Shown here: positions 5,672 to 20,467 of the stretch, in pieces
Layout of the letters: each line of letters opens with the position of its first letter
Numbering within the stretch: the stretch's first letter is position 1
NCBI GenBank assembly: GCA_903859715.1
Contig: CAIONS010000005.1
Span: 1-48,678, forward strand
Reading direction: 5' to 3'
Length of the DNA stretch: 48,678 bases
From: an uncultured Opitutia bacterium
GTDB taxonomy: Bacteria; Verrucomicrobiota; Verrucomicrobiia; Opitutales; Opitutaceae
Position numbers and translations under genes: made by a program
Notes under the pieces: model-generated
The model's input: only the letters and a program-made list of their open reading frames with translations
Database searches by the model: none
Told to the model about the DNA's origin: nothing

Positions 5672-5716
5672 GGCTTGGTTTTTCCGGCGTCGGGAGATGT
5701 TCTAACCGGTTCAACC

Positions 5717-6628
5717 ATGGCATTGGCACTTATTTTTTCCGGTCAGGGAGCCCAAAAAATCGGCATGGGCCGGTCGCTTTCCGAGCAGTCACCCGCGGCT
5801 CGCGCGCTTTATGCCGAGGCCAGCGCGGTTCTCGGCTGGGATTTGGCCAGGATTTGCTTTGAAGGACCTGAGACCGAGCTGACGCAGACCAAGGTCTGCC
5901 AGCCGGCGCTGTTCGTGCACGGCTTGGCCCTGCTAGCCGTCCTACGGGAACAGGGCAAACTGCCCGCTGGTGAGCTGCAATTCGCTCTGGGCTTGAGCCT
6001 GGGCGAGGTGACGGCCTATTGCGCTGCAGGGGTGTTCGATTTTGCGACCGGTCTGCGCGTCGTGGCCGAACGTGGCCGGCTGATGCAGCTGGCATGTGAG
6101 CAGACGACCGGTGGCATGGCGGCCATCATCGGCGAGGAACGGGCGAAGGTTTACGAACTGTGCCGCGAGTTCGATATCGAGGCCGCCAATTTCAACGCGC
6201 CCGGTCAGATTATCGTCTCCGGCGAGAAGTCGAAAATCGACGTGGCTGTCGCGGCCGCGAAGGAGCGGGGCATCAAGAAGGTGATCCCGCTCAACGTCGC
6301 CGGCGCGTATCACTCACGACTGATGGAGCCGGCCCGGACGGCGTTTGCCGCTTACCTGGAGCAGATCCCGTTTTTGACGCCGAAGTTCACCGTGTTCACC
6401 AACACCACCGGACAGACCGTCTCGGCACCCGCCGACCTGAAGGCCGCGCTGGTGAAGCAGGTGGTTTCGTCGGTGCTGTGGGAGGATTGCATGCGCAATG
6501 CCGCGGCCGCCGGGGCGACGGAGTTCTGGGAACTCGGGCCGGGCGGCGTGCTCGCCGGATTGGCGCGACGCACCGAGAAGACCTGGACGGTGAAGAGCTT
6601 TGCAGAATTCCCTGATGTGACCGCCTGA
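5717..6628 (+). CDS. fabD: Malonyl-CoA:ACP transacylase
   Basis: A 303-residue FabD that loads malonyl groups onto acyl carrier protein for fatty acid chain extension. It starts 'MALALIFSGQGAQ', the family's standard opening, at ATG 5717; an upstream in-frame start at 5675 would only add unrelated residues. The nucleophile is Ser94 in 'GLSLGE' (usually GHSLGE, so the neighbouring His is Leu here). The partner is His199 in 'AGAYHSRLM'. It lies two bases before lepA and heads a fabD-lepA-lepB run. It could also supply malonyl-ACP to the 11-20 kb lipid cluster, which has no transacylase of its own. Confidence 0.96.
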   Translation: MALALIFSGQGAQKIGMGRSLSEQSPAARALYAEASAVLGWDLARICFEGPETELTQTKVCQPALFVHGLALLAVLREQGKLPAGELQFALGLSLGEVTAYCAAGVFDFATGLRVVAERGRLMQLACEQTTGGMAAIIGEERAKVYELCREFDIEAANFNAPGQIIVSGEKSKIDVAVAAAKERGIKKVIPLNVAGAYHSRLMEPARTAFAAYLEQIPFLTPKFTVFTNTTGQTVSAPADLKAALVKQVVSSVLWEDCMRNAAAAGATEFWELGPGGVLAGLARRTEKTWTVKSFAEFPDVTA

Positions 6629-11363: not shown

Positions 11364-12254
11364 CTACTTCAGCAAATGCTCGCGGATGAGCGGGATCACT
11401 TCCTCCGCTGCATCCTCGAGCACATAGTGTCCGGCGTCGGCGATTCGTTCACAGCGGGCTGCCGGAAACAGTTCCCGCCAGCGCGCGAGGAATGAGTCAT
11501 TGAAACAAAAATCCCGGCCGCCCCACACGATTAGCGCAGGCCGGTCCTCGAAGTGCGCGAGTCCGGCTTCCGCAGCATTCAGGGTCGCCCAGCTCGGATG
11601 CGCCGGGCTCAGCGGGATGTCGCGCACGAAGGCGCTGACTGCGACCCGTGCGCTCCAGGAACCATAAGGGAAAAGATAACCGCTCTTCTCCTCTGGCGTG
11701 AGACAGCGGCGGTGCATCGCCATCCAGGTGGCGGGCCACGCAAAGCCGTTGAATCCGCGCACCAGCAGCGGGCCGACGAACGGCAGTTTGCAGAGGGCGA
11801 TTCGAGCCGGGATCCGTTCCGAGGCAAAGGCCGCCGTATTCAGGATCACGAGCCGGCCGATCAGCTCGGGATGACGGGCCGCAAAGCCGAATCCAATCGC
11901 CCCGCCCCAATCGTGGACCACCAGGTGCACGCGCTTGAGTCCGAGTGACGCCACCAGCGCTTCGATATCGGCGATGCGGGTCGCGAGCGTGTAGTCATAA
12001 TCCCCGGGCTTCTCCGACAGCCCCATGCCGATGTGATCGGGCGCGATGCAGCGCAGCGTCGGCACCAGCTCCCGCACGAGATTGCGGTAATAGAACGACC
12101 AGGTCGGGTTGCCGTGCAGCATCAGCACCGCCTCATCGGCCCGCGGTCCTTCGTCGAGATAGCTCAGCCGGGCGCCTTGCGCGGTGGCGAATGAGCGCGG
12201 CGTGAATGGATATTGCCGCGCCAGCCAGCCGGGAATCTGTCGGGAGTTCACCAT
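11364..12254 (-). CDS. oleB: OleB-like alpha/beta hydrolase (haloalkane dehalogenase family)
   Basis: A 296-residue hydrolase of the haloalkane dehalogenase III/OleB group. The oxyanion motif is 'HGNPTWSFYYRN', the nucleophile is Asp115 in 'VHDWGGAIG', and the catalytic His is in 'DAGHYVLEDA'. In known ole pathways OleB decarboxylates a beta-lactone to a cis-alkene. ATG 12254 is chosen because it overlaps the OleA-like stop codon (ATGGTGA); another ATG at 12275 lies inside oleA. Translational coupling to an OleA-like gene supports OleB over a true dehalogenase. No OleC or OleD is seen in the window, so its actual substrate is open. Confidence 0.75.
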   Translation of the reverse strand: MVNSRQIPGWLARQYPFTPRSFATAQGARLSYLDEGPRADEAVLMLHGNPTWSFYYRNLVRELVPTLRCIAPDHIGMGLSEKPGDYDYTLATRIADIEALVASLGLKRVHLVVHDWGGAIGFGFAARHPELIGRLVILNTAAFASERIPARIALCKLPFVGPLLVRGFNGFAWPATWMAMHRRCLTPEEKSGYLFPYGSWSARVAVSAFVRDIPLSPAHPSWATLNAAEAGLAHFEDRPALIVWGGRDFCFNDSFLARWRELFPAARCERIADAGHYVLEDAAEEVIPLIREHLLK

Positions 12255-13282
12255 TCGAGCGCGAGCATCAGGCAATTGAGTCCGCTGCCGATGCCGAGCA
12301 ACCCGACCCGGCTGCCTTCTTTTACCGCACCGGCGTCAACCGCCGCGGATAAAGTTGCAGGCAACGCCACGGAGCCGGTGTTGCCGAGTGTTTCAAAGGT
12401 TGAAAAATCCTTCGTCAGATCGAGTCCAAGTGTTTCGTACAGCTTCCGGCGATGCGTGCTGCCGACCTGGTGGCAGATGAAACGGTCAAACGAGTCTGCG
12501 CTCCACCCGGCGGCACTGGCAAACTCGCGCCAAGTCTCCTGCGCGAGTGCGACCCCCGCCACGAGCAATTGTTCGGAGTCGGTCTGCATCGCGAGCGCTT
12601 CGGCTCCATGGGTATCGCCCTGGCAAAGCTCGCTGTGCTGCGTCGCCGCGCGGGCCACGCCTCCGAGCAGGCGGTGCGCATGACCCTTGATGAGCGACCG
12701 GTGGCACACGACTGCAGCCACGGCGCCCGAGCCGATCGTCAGGTTGGCGAAATACGGTTTGATTTCGTTCCGCGTCAGCGGCTGTTCGAGCAGCGTCGTC
12801 AGGGTTTGCTCGACGAGGGGACGCCCGTTCTCCCCGGCGACCACGAGCGCACAGCGGATCTGGCCGGACTCGATCAGGCCGGCGGCGACCGTCAGCGAGT
12901 TGAGGAAACCGAGGCAAGCATTGGACACATCGAAAATCTGCGCCGTGGCCGGGAGGCCGATCTTGCGATGGGTAAACGACGCCGTGGCCGGCTCCAGCAT
13001 GTCGCGACTGACGGCGGCGTGGATGAAGAGCTCGACCTGCTCCGCCTTCAGCTTGGATTTGGCGAGCACGGCCTTCCCGGCTGCGGCACTGGCATCGGAT
13101 GGACGCATGCCAGCCGGCCACATCCGACGCTCGCGGATGCCAGTCATCAGTTCCAGCCGGCCCGCCGGGAGTTTCAGGCGCTCGTAGAGCGGACGCAGGC
13201 GTTCCTCAATCTGGGCGGAACTCCAGCTTTCGTCGGGCAAGGCGACAGCGAGGGACTCGATGCAGACGTTTTCGAACTTCAT
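12248..13282 (-). CDS. oleA: OleA-like condensing enzyme (KAS III / thiolase superfamily)
   Basis: A 344-residue FabH-fold synthase. Predicted catalytic residues are Cys123 in 'SNACLGF', His271 in 'ICHQVGS' and Asn301 in 'LGNTGS'. Glu97 in 'RDMLEPATA' sits 26 residues before the Cys, the same spacing as Glu117 and Cys143 of Xanthomonas OleA; the His-Asn spacing of 30 is also kept. OleA joins two acyl-CoAs head to head into a beta-keto acid. The gene follows a FabI-like gene by seven bases and overlaps the OleB-like gene. GAGG about six bases before ATG 13282 may serve as a ribosome-binding site. A cluster-specific FabH starter enzyme is the main alternative. Confidence 0.75.
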   Translation of the reverse strand: MKFENVCIESLAVALPDESWSSAQIEERLRPLYERLKLPAGRLELMTGIRERRMWPAGMRPSDASAAAGKAVLAKSKLKAEQVELFIHAAVSRDMLEPATASFTHRKIGLPATAQIFDVSNACLGFLNSLTVAAGLIESGQIRCALVVAGENGRPLVEQTLTTLLEQPLTRNEIKPYFANLTIGSGAVAAVVCHRSLIKGHAHRLLGGVARAATQHSELCQGDTHGAEALAMQTDSEQLLVAGVALAQETWREFASAAGWSADSFDRFICHQVGSTHRRKLYETLGLDLTKDFSTFETLGNTGSVALPATLSAAVDAGAVKEGSRVGLLGIGSGLNCLMLALEW

Positions 13283-13289
13283 GCGGGCC

Positions 13290-14102
13290 TCATTTCACGG
13301 GCCGCATCGCGAGGCGGATGATTTCCTGGTCAAAATAATTTGAGCCGAGCCCGGCATCGACCACGAGCGTCGTCCCATTCACGCCGCTGCTGCGCTCGCT
13401 GAGCAGAAACAGCACGGTGTTGGCGACCTCCTGCGTCTCGAGGTTCTTTTTCCGAAAGGTAAGCTTCTCGGCGTATAGATAGCTTTCCAAATAGCCCGGG
13501 ATACCGGCCGACGCGCTGGTCTTGAGCGGCCCGGCACCGACCGCATTGAAGCGGACCGCGGTGTCGGCGCTGAAGGACTTGGCCAGGAACCGTACGCAGG
13601 ACTCCAGGGCCGCCTTGATGGGTCCCATATAGCCGTAGTTGTCGGGTGTGACCTGCAACGAGGAAATGCCGATCGTGACGACCGAAGCGTGCTTCGCCAG
13701 CAGCGGTTTGAATGCGCGCGCCACTTCGACCAGCGAGAAGGCCGAGATGCCCGTGGCTTGGAGAAAGTCTGCGCGCTTCGTTTCGTGAAACGGCTTGAAG
13801 CCCTCGCTATAGTTGGCGAACGCGATCGAGTGCACGATGCCGTGCAGCGGGCCGTGCCCGGCGGCGGAAATTTCAGCGGCAAGCTGCTCGACTGCGCCCG
13901 GATGCTCGACGTCGCAGAGAAACACCGGTTTGCCGGCCAGCTGGGCCGCCAGGGACTGTTTTCTCGCCTCGGAGCGAACGCTATAGAGCACGCGGGCGCC
14001 CTGCTCCTCCAGGGACTTGGCGACGAACCAGGCGACGCTTTTCCGATTCGCGACACCAAAGACCAGGAAAGTCTTGCCCGTGAGCTGGAGGAAATCGCTC
14101 AT
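13290..14102 (-). CDS. fabI: Enoyl-ACP reductase, FabI-like
   Basis: A 270-residue short-chain dehydrogenase of the FabI type, which reduces the enoyl-ACP double bond with NAD(P)H. The cofactor loop reads 'VFGVANRKSVAW'. The catalytic pair Tyr156 and Lys163 in 'NYGYMGPIKAALES' falls at the same residue numbers as E. coli FabI. The substrate loop is 'GPLKTSASAGIPGY'. ATG 14102 overlaps the FabZ-like stop by four bases (ATGA). It sits inside the lipid operon instead of with housekeeping fatty acid genes, so it may be a dedicated paralogue. Whether it is the cell's only FabI cannot be told here. Confidence 0.85.
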   Translation of the reverse strand: MSDFLQLTGKTFLVFGVANRKSVAWFVAKSLEEQGARVLYSVRSEARKQSLAAQLAGKPVFLCDVEHPGAVEQLAAEISAAGHGPLHGIVHSIAFANYSEGFKPFHETKRADFLQATGISAFSLVEVARAFKPLLAKHASVVTIGISSLQVTPDNYGYMGPIKAALESCVRFLAKSFSADTAVRFNAVGAGPLKTSASAGIPGYLESYLYAEKLTFRKKNLETQEVANTVLFLLSERSSGVNGTTLVVDAGLGSNYFDQEIIRLAMRPVK

Positions 14103-14551
14103 GCGCCGGGTGCTCCTTCGGGCGTCTTCCACGCCACGGCGAATTCCACGGTGAGCACACGTTTGTCGCCGCTCTTGATGCTGCCGCTCATCATCGTGAA
14201 ACCGCCGAGGACTTCCTTCTTCTTCACCTCGATGAGGATGGTTTCCCCGGGAAACACGGGATTGCGGAAACGGACATCACTGATCTTGGCGAGCAGCGGC
14301 ACGCCCGCGCGGCTCCCCTGCCCGGCCATCGTCCGGGCCATATAGAGCGCCCCGGCCTGGAACACGGCCTCGCATAACAGCACCCCGGGCGTAATTGGCG
14401 CGCCGGGATAATGGCCCTGATAAAAATCCTCCTCGGCGCGAAACGTCCGGCGGGCGATCAGCCCATCGGCACTCTCCGAGACGATTTCGTCCACGAACAG
14501 AAACGGCGGGCGGTGCGGGATCAGTTGAAGAACCGTGGGACTGGCGCTCAT
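14099..14551 (-). CDS. fabZ: 3-hydroxyacyl-ACP dehydratase, FabZ-like
   Basis: A 150-residue hot-dog-fold dehydratase. The FabZ active-site residues His47 in 'GHYPGAP' and Glu61 in '[13 protein letters not shown]' are both present, and the N-terminal '[11 protein letters not shown]' is typical. It removes water from 3-hydroxyacyl-ACP to give the trans-2-enoyl form. Its start overlaps the end of the CrtI-like gene and its stop overlaps the FabI-like start, both by four bases, so these three products are translationally coupled. It is probably a cluster-dedicated copy. Confidence 0.85.
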
Positions 14552-16011
14552 GCGGAAACTGGAGTGGGTGTGGGCGTGGCCTGGCGCTGGCTGAAGAGGT
14601 ACTGGTCGATCTTGTTCGCCGTGATCACACCATAATTGATCGTGCCGAGCCAGCCCGACATGATGATGCCCACCGAGCCGGCGTGGTAGAGCCCGGGCAG
14701 CTTTTCCGACAGCTCCATCGAGACCTTGAGGCCCTCGAACTTCGTGCCGAAGGAGGTGCCGTTCTGATGCGTGGTGTAACGTTCGATGGTGCGGGGAGTG
14801 GCGGCTTCAGACCAGTCGATCTTGGCCCGCACTCCGGGGATGTAACGCTCGAGCGCAACAATCGACTCCTCCACGAGCCGGGCTTTTTCCTTCTCGTAGT
14901 CCGCGTCGCTGAGCTGCTTCCAGTCACCGTAGCGACCGTTCAGGGAGACAACGACGGTATAGCGATCGGATCCAGGGCGCGTGTCAGGATAATAGACGGA
15001 AAAGGTGCGGCTCGTCGTATGAAAGTTGGTCAGCTCCTCGCTGCTGAATCTGGGATTGGCTGACGTGAAGACGAGATCGCCGATATGCGGGATGCTTTCA
15101 CCTTTTCGGATGCCGAGATAAACTTGGCAAGAACTGGCATTGATCCGCACGGCGCGCGCGGCCTCGATATAATCCGCCGGGAAGTTTTCCTCTCCGGCGA
15201 GCCGGAAGATCGTGTTTTTGATGTTCGCATTGGACAGCACGGTCTTGGCGCGGATGACCCGGCCATTGCCGGCAACGATTCCGCAGGCCACTTTCCGACC
15301 GTCGCGTTCCTCGACGAGGATCCGGTCGACCAGCACTTTTTTCCGCACTTCCACGCCGTTCTGTTTCAGCTCCGCGACCATCTTCTCAATGAGCAGGTCC
15401 GAACCGCCGCGGAACGTATAGACTCCAGAGCCCATGAAATTGGAGAAAACGATGCCGTACGTGATCGCCGGGTCATCGAGCGTCGAGCCGTTGGCGTAGG
15501 CAATCGGCTCCATGAGGAGACGCTTCACGTCATCGCGCCCCGGAAAAAACCGCTCGAGCATTTCCCCCGTGGTTTCCGAGTTGTTGTCGTAGAAATTCAT
15601 GCCCCGGAGATAATCGTAGAACTTCTCCACGTGGGCGGCCTCGAGCTGGAACTGCTCGACCAGCACGCGGGTGTAATCCTCACGGGTGAAAGTAGTCCAG
15701 ACGTCCATCTGCGGATTGACGAAGCGGATGTCCTTCAGCTGCACGATCGAGCTGGCGATCTCCTTCGTCCAGTACTTGCGGCATGACTTGATCATGCCGA
15801 CCGGAAATCCATGCAGGGAAATATCGAAGATATGGCCACCCTTGCGCGTAAACCATGTCGCCAGGCCGCCGAACTGGTAGTGGTGCTCGAGGAGCAGCAC
15901 CTTGTGACCGGCCTTGGCCAGCACGTTAGCACCGGTAAGTCCGCCCAGACCGCTGCCGATCACGATCACATCATACTCGTCGGCCACTCCTTTGAGCCAG
16001 TCATAAGCCAT
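14548..16011 (-). CDS. CrtI/phytoene-desaturase-like FAD oxidoreductase 1
   Basis: A 487-residue flavoprotein of the phytoene desaturase / carotene isomerase / retinol saturase family. The FAD-binding Rossmann motif is '[20 protein letters not shown]', followed by the acidic residue of '[11 protein letters not shown]'. The C-terminal family segment reads '[17 protein letters not shown]'. There are no carotenoid synthesis genes (crtB, crtE) nearby. The gene begins an operon with FabZ-, FabI-, OleA- and OleB-like genes, so an acyl chain is a more likely substrate than phytoene. ATG 16011 is chosen because the Rossmann fold begins 13 residues later; it is preceded by a pyrimidine-rich stretch, not a Shine-Dalgarno. 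Confidence 0.8.
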
Positions 16012-16094
16012 GGAAGGAGCAGAGTGAAAGCGGTGCCGCAGCGAGGGCAAGGGGTTTTGTACCGCTGCCGGCCCGCTTTGCCCGGCCGGCAGAT

Positions 16095-16147
16095 GCCGAC
16101 GTGTGGAGGCTGGGCCCTCTTTCTCAAGCCAGCCTCCTCACGTCGGC
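16095..16147. repeat. Long imperfect palindrome between the CrtI-like and DUF3300 genes
   Basis: The arms 16095-16113 (GCCGACGTGTGGAGGCTGG) and 16129-16147 are reverse complements over 19 bases with one mismatch, around a 15-base loop. It lies in the gap downstream of the DUF3300 stop and upstream of the CrtI-like start. It may terminate DUF3300 transcription, or be a dispersed palindromic repeat; there is no T run directly after it. Confidence 0.7.
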
Positions 16148-16183
16148 TGCTACTAATGCTGGCGGGCTGACTCCGACGGATCT

Positions 16184-17389
16184 CTACTGCGGAGCACCGC
16201 CACCCCTTGAAGACGTCGTGGGTGGCGATGCCGGTGGAGGCGTCGCTGTCGCTGGCGCTGGAGCCGACGTTGCAGCTGGCGGGGGCATCACGACCCGCGG
16301 GCTGGGCGTGGCTTTCACCTGAGGGGGCCGATTTTGCGGCGGCATTGGTGGATTGGCCGGCACGGCGCTACGCGGTTGATTGTTTGAAGGAGGAGCTACT
16401 CTAGCCGCTGGGACGGAAGGCACCGGTGTACTCCGGTATGTTCCAGGAACCGGCGCTGCCCGCGAGGGCTCCGCCACCGGTGACTGGCGATTTACATCCG
16501 GTCGAGCCGGGCGGTTGCGATCATCAGGCCGGGAGTTATGCGGCGTGGGCGGTGTTCCCGGAAAAGGTCTGGGGCGTACGACGTCAGGGCGCGGCCGGTG
16601 GCCACCGGGTGGCGGTGAAGGCGGCCGATGGACTGGCGGCCTCCACGGGTGCCAGTTGGGATTGTTCGGGAAATTGGGCCGGCCGGGTGAACCGGGGCGA
16701 TACCAGCCTTGGTGCCGGTCTCCCACCCAGATGCTCCGGCGGCGCCAGTCCAAATCATAGCTCAGCCAATAGCCCGTGGGAAATCCGTAGCCGAACGTCA
16801 CATACGATCCGCCATAATTGTCCGGATCTGCGACATAAACGACATCGGGGTCATAACGCGGCACGTAGATGACATCGGGCTGGGCCGGCACGATTTCAAT
16901 CGCACCCTCATCGTCGACGACCTGCTGCTGCGGTGTATTGACCAAGGCGCCCGTGGCCCGCGCGCGGGCGCGGAGACGTTGAACAGCGGTCATCACATCG
17001 GAGGGCTGGGCGACGAAGGCGGAGCCCATCTGTTGCGTCCACGCGAGATTCTCATCCATCCATTTTATGATCTCAGGATAGCGCGCCAGCGATTTCACAC
17101 TGTCGTTCCAGGGCTGGCCGTCGATTTCCGCCGCGGTACCCGCGGCGTTCAGGTAGCGGGCGGCGAGGACGATATCCGTGGGCATCGTCGATGCGGGCAA
17201 AATGAGGGCAACCAAGGCGTCCGGATAAAGGGCGATGGGGCCGAGCAATTGATCAAGCTGCGGCTGGGTCAGCTGAACATCGGGATCAATCTCGGGAATG
17301 GATTCCTGAGCCCGGATCGAGCCGGGCAGGAGAAAGGCGATGCCGAACAAGAAAGCCAGCGGGCGAACAGTTCTGAAGCAGGATGTCAT
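16184..17389 (-). CDS. DUF3300 family secreted protein
   Basis: A 401-residue exported protein. The signal peptide 'LAFLFGIAFLLPGSIRAQ' ends near residue 28. The DUF3300 domain occupies about residues 35-200, with 'QLDQLLGPIALYPDALVALI' near its start and 'VIYVPRYDPDVVYV' near its end. The last 170 residues are rich in Pro, Arg and Asn and probably disordered. The function of DUF3300 proteins is unknown. It sits between the two CrtI-like flavoenzyme genes on the same strand, 52 bases after the second one, so it may share transcription with the lipid cluster, but nothing in its sequence suggests an enzymatic role there. Confidence 0.85.
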   Translation of the reverse strand: MTSCFRTVRPLAFLFGIAFLLPGSIRAQESIPEIDPDVQLTQPQLDQLLGPIALYPDALVALILPASTMPTDIVLAARYLNAAGTAAEIDGQPWNDSVKSLARYPEIIKWMDENLAWTQQMGSAFVAQPSDVMTAVQRLRARARATGALVNTPQQQVVDDEGAIEIVPAQPDVIYVPRYDPDVVYVADPDNYGGSYVTFGYGFPTGYWLSYDLDWRRRSIWVGDRHQGWYRPGSPGRPNFPNNPNWHPWRPPVHRPPSPPPGGHRPRPDVVRPRPFPGTPPTPHNSRPDDRNRPARPDVNRQSPVAEPSRAAPVPGTYRSTPVPSVPAARVAPPSNNQPRSAVPANPPMPPQNRPPQVKATPSPRVVMPPPAATSAPAPATATPPPASPPTTSSRGGGAPQ

Positions 17390-17441
17390 GGGGTATGGGG
17401 TTGCCGGTACGACAAGCGGACCTGGACTTCGTGCCAGCCGA

Positions 17442-18875
17442 TTAACCTTTTTGAAGGATGTGATAATTTGCCATCGAAATCCCGCTGAGCATCGCGCCTA
17501 CGATGCCAAGAAATCCCTGGTCGGTGCCACAGAGGTAAAGATTCGCCAGGTCGGTACGACCCTGACGGTTTTTCTGCGTGGCCCCGTAAATCGCACCGCC
17601 GAGGTGGCCGGTGAATTTCGTGATGGTCCGCGGGGTGAACATGTCGGTGGTCACGGTCGCCACGGACAGTGCGTCCGGTGTTGGCAGGGCGGGCAGGAAA
17701 CGCTGCGCACTCTTTTGCAGTGCCTGATACCAACGCTGTTTGTCCGCTTGGTAAACATCATCCGGCAAATGCGCCCACTGCGCGTAATTGGCCAGGCAGG
17801 TGCAGCGGAAGATTCCCTCCGGCAACTGGAGCTCCGGGCCGTAGTCGAAGTTGTTGGGGATGCAGATCACGCCGCTCCGTGGGTCGACCTGGGCGCCCGG
17901 ACAGGCATAGTCGAAACGGGCGGAGTCGTTGAAAAAAATGATCGTGTCATTCCCCCACCCGAGTGCGGCCGGCTGGCGGTCGAGGATCGTGATGGTTTCG
18001 ACGAACGATAGCCGTCCCGGTGCGGCCGGCGGCGCAGTGAGGACGGCAGGTTGAATAAGGCGGGCGGTTTCAGGCGCGCCGATCGACGAGATGACCTGGT
18101 CCGCGGAAATTTCATCGCCCGTGTCGAGTACCAGTGCGGTCGCCCGCCCGTCATGCGAGATGATCTGCTTCACACCGCACTTCATCCGCCGCTCGCCGCC
18201 CGCTGCACGGTATTTCTCCAGCAGCACGCGCAGGATGACCCGCACGCCATCGAAGGGCCGGGCAAAGCCCTCGAGGAAGAGCGCCTTGAACATGATCACG
18301 AACTGACCGAACTCCATGTCGTGCTCCGTGGCGCTGCCGTAGTACATCAGCGGACAGAACAACATGTCCTCCAGCAGCGGATCGGTAATATGCTGGCGAA
18401 CGATCTGCCGGGCGGAGACCGGCGCCGCGTCCAGCGATACATCGTCGAAACTCCGGACGGTGGTCGTGAGCCGGCGAAAACCGTCGATCTGGCCGGGAAA
18501 CCGAGCAGCCACCTCGCTCTCGAGCACGCCAAAATCATTGGTGAAACGGAGTGACGTTTCGCCGCGCGGGCCAAAGGCGACGCGCGACTGCTTCTGCTCG
18601 CACAGCTCGAACTCATCCCGGTCGATCCGCAGTTGCCGGAGGAGTTTGCCGAGTGGCGTACCCTTGGTGCCGGGCCGCACATAGTTGGTCATCGCGTGCA
18701 GGCCCACGTCGAACTTGCGGCCGCCGATGCTGTAGAAACTGTTCAGGCCCCCGACGGTGTTATGGCGCTCGAAGATGCACACCCGCTTGCCGAAATGCGC
18801 CAGGCGGATGCCGGCGGCGAGGCCGGACATGCCGGCGCCGATGATGGCGACATCATAGTGCGAGCGGGTGTTCAT
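17442..18875 (-). CDS. CrtI/phytoene-desaturase-like FAD oxidoreductase 2
   Basis: A 477-residue flavoprotein of the same superfamily as the gene at 14548-16011 but clearly divergent from it. The FAD motif is 'VAIIGAGMSGLAAGIRLAHF', followed by 'CIFERHNTVGGLNSFY'. The C-terminal segment 'LYLCGTDQGFLGIVGAMLSG' is the second FAD contact typical of CrtI/CrtISO/RetSat enzymes. Such enzymes desaturate, isomerise or saturate conjugated carbon chains. It lies 70 bases after the acyl carrier protein gene, with a strong terminator hairpin between, so its expression may depend on read-through or its own promoter. Confidence 0.8.
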   Translation of the reverse strand: MNTRSHYDVAIIGAGMSGLAAGIRLAHFGKRVCIFERHNTVGGLNSFYSIGGRKFDVGLHAMTNYVRPGTKGTPLGKLLRQLRIDRDEFELCEQKQSRVAFGPRGETSLRFTNDFGVLESEVAARFPGQIDGFRRLTTTVRSFDDVSLDAAPVSARQIVRQHITDPLLEDMLFCPLMYYGSATEHDMEFGQFVIMFKALFLEGFARPFDGVRVILRVLLEKYRAAGGERRMKCGVKQIISHDGRATALVLDTGDEISADQVISSIGAPETARLIQPAVLTAPPAAPGRLSFVETITILDRQPAALGWGNDTIIFFNDSARFDYACPGAQVDPRSGVICIPNNFDYGPELQLPEGIFRCTCLANYAQWAHLPDDVYQADKQRWYQALQKSAQRFLPALPTPDALSVATVTTDMFTPRTITKFTGHLGGAIYGATQKNRQGRTDLANLYLCGTDQGFLGIVGAMLSGISMANYHILQKG

Positions 18876-18885
18876 GCGTGGGACT

Positions 18886-18923
18886 CGGGCAAAACAAAGG
18901 GCCGGGAAATGCTTCCCGGCCCT
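18886..18923 (-). terminator. Rho-independent terminator after the ACP gene
   Basis: On the minus strand AGGGCCGGGAA (arm 18913-18923) pairs perfectly with 18898-18908 around a 4-base loop, an 11-bp GC-rich stem. TTTGTTTTGC follows. It lies about 23 bases after the ACP stop and 22 bases before the next gene's ATG, separating the KS-ACP pair from the downstream flavoenzyme. Confidence 0.8.
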
Positions 18924-18945
18924 GTCGAAAGGTCAAACCCGGCGC

Positions 18946-19209
18946 TCAGCTCTTGGCGCTGAGGGCGTTGAACTTGGGCGTCAGGTAGTTCGCGCAGCTG
19001 TCGAGCGAGGCGAGCTGGATGTAGTCGGCCTCCGGGACCTCGATGCTGTGGCGCTTGCGCAGCTCCATCACGATGTCGAGAAAGTCCATCGAATCGAGCT
19101 GGAGCTGATCGCGCAGGCGCACGTCGGGCTTGAGCGTGCTCAAGTCCTCATCGGGCGCGATGTCGGCGATAATATCGATCACCACCTTCTTGCATTCGTC
19201 TTTGGTCAT
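18946..19209 (-). CDS. Acyl carrier protein (cluster-specific)
   Basis: An 87-residue acyl carrier protein. The phosphopantetheine site is Ser40 in 'LQLDSMDFLDI', and the four-helix pattern and acidic helix II are normal. ATG 19209 gives 'MTKDECKKVVIDII'; an upstream in-frame ATG at 19251 would overlap the ketosynthase gene and add 14 unrelated residues. It lies 19 bases behind the FabF-like gene, so the two are cotranscribed, and a terminator follows. A housekeeping acpP normally sits by fabG/fabF; this copy is probably dedicated to the lipid cluster. Confidence 0.92.
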   Translation of the reverse strand: MTKDECKKVVIDIIADIAPDEDLSTLKPDVRLRDQLQLDSMDFLDIVMELRKRHSIEVPEADYIQLASLDSCANYLTPKFNALSAKS

Positions 19210-19228
19210 ATGGGCTGAAGCGAGGGAC

Positions 19229-20467
19229 TTAGGCGGCAAAGCGCTTAACAATCAACGTGGAATTTATCCCCAGCATGCCGAACGAATTATTAAGGATCGT
19301 GTCCACTTTCGCAACCTTGCGCGGCTGATTCAGCACCAGCCCAGGCAGCGCGCAGGCCGGGTCGAGCTGGTCGACGTTGATCGTGGGATGAACCGTCAGG
19401 TCGTCAAACGACGGCAGGTTGCCCGCCAGTTCAAGCGCGCCCGCCGCGCCCATGCAGTGGCCGATGTAACTCTTCGTGTTGTTGATGTGGGTGTCCGGGC
19501 AACCTTCGCCAAACACCGCGCGGATCGCCTCGCACTCCTGGATGTCGCCCAGCGGCGTGGCGGTGGCATGGGTGTTGACGATGTGGATGTCGCGCGGCTC
19601 GAGTCCGGCGCGACGGATGGAGGCGCGTACGCACTCGGCCTGGCGCACCGGATTGGGCAGCACGTAATCGCTGGCGTCGGAGTTGACGTGATAACCCGCG
19701 ATCTCGGCGTAGATCTTCGCGCCGCGCGCCTGCGCATCCTCGAGCCGTTCAAGCGTGTACAGGCAGCCGCCTTCGGAAACAACGATGCCATTGCGGGCAA
19801 GATCGAAGGGACGGCTGGCCTTGCTTGGGTCGGCATGTGTCGCGAGCGCGTTCTGGCTCTTGAAGCCGGCAAAGATGCCAAACGTGTGGATGCTCTCGCT
19901 CACCCCGCCGCAGATCGCCAGGTCCACTTCGCCAAGCCGCAGCATCTGCGTGGCGTGGATCAGCCCGAGATTCCCGGCCGCGCACGCCGCGCCGATCGTG
20001 TACGCCGGGCCGGTGACACCCAGGTTGAGCGAAGCTTCCCCGGCCGGGTTGTTCGCGACAGTCCGCGGGTTGTGGTAGTGAGACCAGAACTTCGTGTCGT
20101 AGTTAAATTTCGAGATGTTGTAGATTTCGTTCTCGGTCTCGACGTTGCCGTGCTCCGTACAGCCGATGTAAATGCCCGCGCGGTCCTTCGACTGGGCCGC
20201 CCAGTCAACGCCGCTGTCGTTCAGCGCCTCGCGGGCGCAGTAGATGCTGATGCTGCCGGCGCGAGTACCGACCCGGACTTCCTTCTTCGTCTGGTGGCGC
20301 AGCGGGTCGTAGTGACAGACCCCGGCCAGCTGCGAGCCCATGTAGCGGATTTCCATCCGTTCGATGCCTGCCACGCCGTTGAGCAGGTTCTGGCGAAATT
20401 CGGCGAGGGAATTGCCGTTGGGGGCTGTCAGACCGACTCCGGTGATGACGATGCGGGAAGGCTTCAT
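19229..20467 (-). CDS. FabF-like beta-ketoacyl-ACP synthase with altered gating loop
   Basis: A 412-residue condensing enzyme of the FabB/FabF type. The catalytic triad is intact: Cys162 in 'GAACAAGN', His300 in 'NTHATATPLGD' and His337 in 'KSYIGHCMGAAG'. The strongly conserved C-terminal gating loop 'GFGGTN' of FabF is replaced by 'GMLGIN' (397-402). This suggests a specialised paralogue accepting an unusual acyl chain. No chain-length-factor partner is present. It starts the leftward cluster, divergent from galE across a 59-base gap that must hold promoters for both. It forms a pair with the ACP gene. Confidence 0.88.
   Translation of the reverse strand: MKPSRIVITGVGLTAPNGNSLAEFRQNLLNGVAGIERMEIRYMGSQLAGVCHYDPLRHQTKKEVRVGTRAGSISIYCAREALNDSGVDWAAQSKDRAGIYIGCTEHGNVETENEIYNISKFNYDTKFWSHYHNPRTVANNPAGEASLNLGVTGPAYTIGAACAAGNLGLIHATQMLRLGEVDLAICGGVSESIHTFGIFAGFKSQNALATHADPSKASRPFDLARNGIVVSEGGCLYTLERLEDAQARGAKIYAEIAGYHVNSDASDYVLPNPVRQAECVRASIRRAGLEPRDIHIVNTHATATPLGDIQECEAIRAVFGEGCPDTHINNTKSYIGHCMGAAGALELAGNLPSFDDLTVHPTINVDQLDPACALPGLVLNQPRKVAKVDTILNNSFGMLGINSTLIVKRFAA

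Follow-up and report, generated by a model that had tools for sequence, protein, structure and literature searches.

A cluster of nine genes in the genome of an uncultured Opitutia bacterium (Verrucomicrobiota; Opitutales; Opitutaceae) joins genes of type II fatty acid synthesis (FASII) and two flavoenzymes resembling the carotenoid desaturase CrtI to an OleA/OleB-like pair. The window analysed, 48,678 nucleotides in length, comprises positions 1 to 48,678 of contig CAIONS010000005.1 (assembly GCA_903859715.1), and open reading frame (ORF) lists with Pfam and NCBIfam scans place all nine genes on its minus strand, from OleB (11364) to the ketosynthase (KS, 20467). Read from upstream, the gene order is KS, acyl carrier protein (ACP), CrtI-B, DUF3300, CrtI-A, FabZ, FabI, OleA and OleB-like. 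The gene set is real, dedicated and deeply conserved, and we consider it probable, at roughly 60%, that it serves as a dedicated line supplying acyl chains to head-to-head (Ole) hydrocarbon synthesis, with the two CrtI-like flavoenzymes taking part. The acyl chains supplied are likely to be polyunsaturated. A first-pass annotation had proposed a dedicated lipid-type cluster combining the logic of FASII/CrtI clusters with that of Ole, a proposal that the present analysis supports; Pfam and NCBIfam matches and ORF coordinates bear out its placement and leftward orientation of every gene that it named within 11364–20467, while the DUF3300 gene at 16184–17389 was missing from its list.

Co-occurrence and gene order across genomes

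CrtI-A was detected in 70 of the 74 genomes of the order and in none of the 310 other genomes of the class (384 class genomes, e-value 1e-20; scoring was limited to four candidates per genome in this search and in that of 387 genomes of the phylum). In a set of 80 class genomes, OleA was present in 70/74 order genomes and 0/6 others, and CrtI-B in 71/74 and 0/6, respectively. Three order genomes (G281, G362 and G377) are without CrtI-A, CrtI-B and OleA alike, and small genomes of the order (1.3–2.1 Mb) retain the set, with G103 and G330 as exceptions. CrtI-A, CrtI-B and OleA have been gained and lost nearly together in the order. The best CrtI-B match in three genomes of one genus (G122, G169 and G213) is only 32–33% identical, with normal CrtI-A and OleA.

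Among the 387 phylum genomes, CrtI-A also occurs in 49 genomes of other classes, at 49–59% identity in 47 of these and as weak matches in the other two (G494 and G590, 27–28%). OleA (at least 45% identity) accompanies it in 43/49 of these genomes (42/47 without the weak two), compared with 0/31 genomes lacking CrtI-A, the latter being a non-random set picked by handle number, absent from the listed CrtI-A-positives and taken as part of the 387-genome draw; weaker FabH-like matches (25–41%) in seven of these 31 genomes were not counted.

Of the 70 CrtI-A loci in the order, 40 were assessed for gene order, with neighbours identified by tblastn and blastp; these tables were used in preference to Louvain clustering of the neighbours, which left the CrtI-A proteins ungrouped. 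The order CrtI-A-FabZ-FabI-OleA-OleB on the same strand was recovered at 16/40 loci, comprising 12/14 in the family of the window and 4/26 outside it, the latter in four other families, with insertions after CrtI-A at two of the 16 (L077 and L102). Partial sets were found at three further loci, namely FabZ-FabI (L086), FabZ (L103) and, in a 1.7 Mb genome of another family (G103), OleC-OleD 3.4 kb downstream of CrtI-A (L089). The full eight-gene order, disregarding DUF3300, occurs at 8/40 loci, all within the same family as the window and some with insertions. In the best-scoring 80 of 588 named related loci, which lean towards close relatives, sometimes end at contig ends and did not extend to other phyla, the five-gene order was observed in 52/80 and the eight-gene order in 30/80, ignoring unrelated genes in between. 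One of these sequences (L221) belongs to Verrucomicrobiae bacterium DG1235, which is not a metagenome bin and shows the five-gene order. CrtI-A was likewise found in Geminisphaera colitermitum TAV2 (L190) and Coraliomargarita sp. SDUM461004 (L223). The gene order is thus not due to chance, and the loss of order in close relatives that the first-pass annotation had named as grounds for abandoning its proposal was not seen.

Where CrtI-B lies away from CrtI-A, 12 hand-picked loci of the order revealed KS-ACP-CrtI-B in nine, a rearrangement of the same three genes in one and CrtI-B alone in two (from one family). Outside the class, eight OleA or CrtI-B loci comprised two with KS-ACP-CrtI-B and a divergent OleA directly upstream (G512 and G524, one genus of another class), one with OleA-OleB and five with OleA or CrtI-B alone. 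The conserved units are therefore two modules, KS-ACP-CrtI-B and CrtI-A-FabZ-FabI-OleA-OleB, each of which is positionally tied to OleA in at least one lineage.

Protein assignments and general fatty acid genes

CrtI-A and CrtI-B share only 23% identity, with the glycine-rich FAD motif kept in both. Neither passes the crtI_fam model TIGR02734 (77.7 and 53 bits, respectively, cut-off 238.1), and the best model for CrtI-A, the carotenoid isomerase (CrtISO) TIGR02730, is matched at 119 bits, far below its cut-off of 587. AlphaFold2 models of CrtI-A and CrtI-B (mean predicted local distance difference test 83.2 and 83.7) both have the gamma-carotenoid desaturase 4rep as nearest solved structure, with Z 28.1 and a root mean square deviation of 3.5 over 429 residues for CrtI-A. 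These modelled matches indicate a CrtI fold and give no clue to the substrate. The two proteins thus resemble the carotenoid enzymes CrtI, CrtISO and CrtD in fold and FAD-binding motif, but their nearest solved structure is 18% identical, they score below the family cut-off and their gene context is different. Three other PF01593 matches exist in the genome, one beside a HemE-like ORF (named by eye), one on contig C65 and a short one on contig C68, while a search of a plasmid collection returned one weak match per CrtI protein (~25% identity).

The best Protein Data Bank matches of OleA (3row, 3s21, 5vxh, 4kti and others, which we take to be Xanthomonas campestris OleA) score 233–238 bits, compared with 80 bits for the next family, and by this measure the protein is far nearer to 3row-type structures than to FabH. 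The model that it passes, NF006720 (456 bits), is named 3-oxoacyl-ACP synthase III. The alignment retains LEP, NAC, HQV and GN at the places matching Glu117, Cys143, His285 and Asn315, presumably the key residues of OleA. For the OleB-like protein, haloalkane-dehalogenase models were matched below cut-off, structures of haloalkane-dehalogenase type were matched and no OleB-specific model was; its putative assignment as OleB follows from the fold, the HDWGG motif and the position next to OleA. Candidates for OleC and OleD are adjacent on contig C68, the former passing NF006754, a fatty acid CoA ligase family (635 bits, cut-off 478). The OleA-like and OleB-like genes named in the first-pass annotation were found at the locus, and the Ole set as a whole appears complete in the genome, judged from candidates for all four proteins. 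The likeness to the OleABCD pathway extends to these four candidates and to the OleA active-site residues, but the single oleABCD operon is replaced by oleAB (contig C5) and oleCD on different contigs. The classical Ole operon carries no FASII/CrtI genes, whereas oleAB here continues from them. Published surveys place Ole genes in related organisms, with oleABCD reported only from the Opitutae among the genomes of a freshwater Verrucomicrobia study (PMC5673642), Opitutae listed among carriers in a survey of OleA (PMC7064751) and Opitutaceae among the metagenome-assembled genomes with olefin genes in a lake study (PMC10176705).

The genome (3.18 Mb, 97.8% complete) contains six KS loci, and the FabF-like KS on contig C56 adjoins FabG- and ACP-like ORFs (both named by eye). 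The housekeeping FabF-, FabZ- and ACP-like proteins were picked by eye from their neighbouring genes. The cluster KS shares 34% identity with the C56 FabF-like protein, compared with 66% for a KS that adjoins OleA in a genome from another class, and an alignment to FabF 4qav shows that it keeps the active-site Cys, both His and the Lys, to which we assign catalytic roles. The cluster ACP, which has DSM at what is presumably the phosphopantetheine site, is 26% identical to the ACP on C56 over 58 residues. PF07977 has two more matches elsewhere in the genome, judged by eye to be a fusion of LpxC to FabZ and an ACP-FabZ protein. The FabI-like protein keeps the Tyr and Lys (alignment to 6ah9), whose roles we take to be those of FabI, and is the only FabI homologue found in the genome, a second match being 25% identical and by eye a short-chain dehydrogenase/reductase. 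FabV is encoded outside the cluster (626 bits, cut-off 400), so that the general enoyl reductase could be an enzyme other than the cluster FabI. General fatty acid synthesis was rejected as the role of KS, ACP and FabZ, as counterparts exist elsewhere in the genome; the possibility raised by the first-pass annotation, that these genes and FabI are the sole housekeeping copies, was not borne out.

Two further loci were noted. A second lipid-like locus on C56 (L031, G000:C56:105000-124000; also L009 and L028) combines an ACP-FabZ-like protein and a FabB/F-like KS with glycosyltransferase-like and alpha-oxoamine-synthase-like ORFs, all named by eye except the KS and the PF07977 match. Contig C70 (53 kb; L004, L010, L011, L013-L019, L022 and L024) carries 11 of the 16 AMP-binding matches of the genome and a type I KS and has the look of a large nonribosomal peptide synthetase/polyketide synthase cluster.

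Layout of the locus

Table 1 Features of the cluster, with coordinates in the window.
Feature	Position	Strand	Basis
KS, dedicated ketosynthase (FabF-like)	19229..20467	-	PF00109/PF02801; alignment to FabF 4qav
ACP, dedicated acyl carrier protein	18946..19251	-	PF00550
Terminator-like hairpin with T-rich tail in the ACP/CrtI-B gap; possible attenuator	18898..18923	-	Hairpin scan
CrtI-B, CrtI/CrtD-like FAD oxidoreductase	17442..18875	-	PF01593
DUF3300 protein, between the two CrtI genes	16184..17389	-	PF11737, E 1.1e-48
CrtI-A, CrtI/CrtISO-like FAD oxidoreductase	14548..16011 (ORF opens 16050)	-	PF01593; start 16011 favoured by homologues
FabZ-like 3-hydroxyacyl-ACP dehydratase	14099..14551	-	PF07977, E 2.4e-21
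FabI-like enoyl-ACP reductase	13290..14099, likely start 14099 (ORF opens 14132)	-	PF13561
OleA-type thiolase	12248..13282	-	NF006720, 456 bits, cut-off 285
OleB-like alpha/beta hydrolase with HDWGG motif	11364..12275	-	PF00561

CrtI-A, FabZ, FabI, OleA and OleB overlap or nearly touch, confirming the five closely packed genes of the first-pass annotation, and KS and ACP overlap as well. DUF3300 is probably a passenger, because only 2/40 order loci and 6/80 named related loci carry it. The GC-rich hairpin with a T-rich tail in the ACP/CrtI-B gap hints at attenuation after KS-ACP, and is one of five terminator-like hairpins in the region compared with 7.7 expected by chance. In homologous ACP/CrtI-B gaps (L161-L232), a hairpin followed by at least six T in eight bases was present in 8/32. 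A promoter scan of the region was uninformative, with three sites against 1.8 expected by chance.

Both flanks look ordinary, with LepA-, LepB- and MalQ-like ORFs (named by eye) on one of them and GalE and a response-regulator-like ORF (the latter by eye) on the other. GC content is 0.57–0.65 across the cluster and its flanks, such that the cluster does not stand out; given this and the near universality of the genes in the order, a foreign island is unsupported.

Proposed route, precedents and alternatives

In the proposed mechanism, KS, ACP, FabZ and FabI would elongate an acyl chain on its own carrier protein, with FabD and FabG lent by the general fatty acid genes (a FabD-like ORF, named by eye, lies at 5675–6628). 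CrtI-B and CrtI-A would introduce, shift or isomerise double bonds while the chain sits on the dedicated ACP, either by desaturation through hydride removal beside an existing double bond or by CrtISO-like isomerisation. OleA would then condense two chains, OleD would reduce the condensation product, OleC would close a beta-lactone and OleB would decarboxylate it to a long internal olefin. We infer the CrtI-like chemistry, the use of general FabG and FabD, and the identity of the product, for which the C31:9 hydrocarbon known from Pfa-fed Ole pathways would, by analogy, be the leading candidate. Sukovich's 2010 work on Ole distribution is said to have tested Verrucomicrobia for olefins and to have found 31:9 to be the commonest product.

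Transfer from ACP to OleA has a proposed precedent in bacteria with Pfa, for which Allemann (2019, PMC6463001) proposes that OleA accepts 16:4 chains from an ACP and that the product is 31:9. The locus shares with the Pfa synthase and Ole systems of Shewanella and Photobacterium only this proposed logic, a dedicated ACP-bound unsaturated chain passed to OleA, whereas its enzymes are discrete type II proteins and CrtI-like flavoenzymes rather than PfaABCD. The best match to the PfaA model was 122 bits (cut-off 1010) in a scan of five of the six KS loci, namely the cluster KS, three other complete KS proteins and, from the protein on C70, the KS domain; the sixth KS (C56) is only 423 amino acids long. 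A word search of the main text of Shulse and Allen (2011; PMC3098273) returned no mention of Verrucomicrobia or Opitutus.

The nearest precedent is the FASII/CrtI gene clusters described for Desulfotalea psychrophila. In Kuenenia stuttgartiensis and D. psychrophila, FASII genes are accompanied by two or three genes of the CrtI-like type (Rattray et al. 2009, PMC2649909), and D. psychrophila contains C31:8 and C31:9 hydrocarbons, with no polyketide synthase of the polyunsaturated fatty acid (PUFA) type found according to the relevant passages of that paper, whose authors proposed a novel anaerobic PUFA route. The first-pass annotation held that the combination of genes matched no characterised pathway, which must be qualified by this partial precedent of CrtI-like genes among FASII genes. 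Compared by description only, both sets share an extra FabF, ACP and other FASII genes with CrtI-like proteins, but FabI lies inside the cluster here and in unrelated clusters there (PMC2649909, Figure 4 legend), and OleA and OleB are joined on only here. No literature on the joining of Ole genes to a FASII/CrtI cluster in Verrucomicrobiota was found in a search that left subscription papers mostly outside. The first-pass annotation had also drawn a comparison with the ladderane gene clusters of anammox bacteria, and CrtI-like genes with extra FabF, FabZ and ACP are indeed present here. Neither a radical S-adenosylmethionine (SAM) protein nor a SAM methyltransferase was detected among the ten proteins scanned, from OleB to GalE, and a ladderane cluster is therefore unsupported.

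Several observations weigh against a dedicated Ole supply line. FabI, an enzyme that removes double bonds, lies within the cluster, and the hydrocarbon product is predicted from the genes alone. Hydride removal of the CrtI type normally needs an activated (allylic) position, so that, on general chemical grounds, non-conjugated cis double bonds would be no obvious CrtI product. Model scores fall short for FabZ (98 bits, cut-off 113), for FabI (up to 182 bits, all below cut-offs), for the OleC candidate against two OleC models (508 and 441 bits, cut-offs 900 and 850) and for the OleD candidate, whose best match is the OleD model (374 bits, cut-off 580). At 21/40 order loci, the strand of CrtI-A carried no recognisable cluster partner in its vicinity, and FabZ, FabI and OleA were absent near CrtI-A at all 20 loci examined outside the class (weak AMP-ligase matches, 22–24% identical to OleC, at two of these were not counted). 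G103 has CrtI-A, CrtI-B, OleC and OleD with no OleA match, G330 has CrtI-B and OleA without CrtI-A, and 6/49 CrtI-A-positive genomes of other classes are without OleA. The co-occurrence also partly reflects shared ancestry, as the genomes are not independent events. Finally, the two modules are often apart, and the terminator-like hairpin parts KS-ACP from the remaining genes.

These last two points also favour a reading in which the Ole enzymes draw on general acyl-CoA or acyl-ACP and yield ordinary olefins (saturated, branched or mono-unsaturated), while an unsaturated lipid distinct from these is the product of KS, ACP and the CrtI-like enzymes and only regulation is shared, as would fit Xanthomonas and Stenotrophomonas, where ordinary FASII products feed Ole (PMC6463001). 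We regard this reading as unlikely, given that CrtI-A, CrtI-B and OleA have come and gone nearly together over the 74 order genomes, as have CrtI-A and OleA in other classes, that KS-ACP-CrtI-B adjoins OleA in one genus of another class, and that 52 of the best-scoring 80 among 588 named loci have CrtI-A collinear with OleA and OleB.

Less probable still is a conjugated polyene chain of aryl-polyene-like type, dimerised by OleA or used as a pigment or antioxidant. Such a product would suit enzymes of the CrtI type, whose usual action is to extend conjugation. It may also be favoured by genome mining of Opitutales symbiont bins, which is reported to have yielded two clusters in all, each labelled aryl polyene (PMC8277422). 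Against it, the KS of aryl polyene clusters is paired with a second, partner KS, whereas the present cluster has one KS only and contains FabI. We give very little weight to a third possibility, that both CrtI-like proteins belong to carotenoid or squalene metabolism and only happen to adjoin lipid genes: carotenoid desaturases are among their nearest solved structures by both sequence profile and fold, but both proteins score far below the CrtI family cut-off and track OleA across genomes, and the ten scanned proteins include no terpenoid synthase (no search was aimed at phytoene or squalene synthase). Two Kuenenia CrtI-like proteins, likened to CrtI-A and CrtI-B by description only, also gave no lycopene in the experiments described by Javidpour (2016, PMC4790861).

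Within the preferred reading of a dedicated supply line for Ole, we tentatively put forward, at somewhat less than even odds, a route to polyunsaturated acyl-ACP that is independent of Pfa and possibly of oxygen. In it, discrete type II enzymes and the CrtI pair, the latter acting as acyl-ACP desaturases or double-bond isomerases, would take the place of the giant PUFA synthase in supplying OleA. Such a route would go far back in the order and extend to other classes of the phylum, and could be the chemistry that anammox bacteria use towards ladderanes. It would bear on the question of where bacteria without a PUFA synthase obtain the polyunsaturated chains for 31:9-type hydrocarbons, and on the role of CrtI-like proteins in fatty acid gene clusters, which is part of the ladderane question. 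The locus is a compact gene set, nearly core in the order, and a candidate for the missing way to polyunsaturated hydrocarbons.

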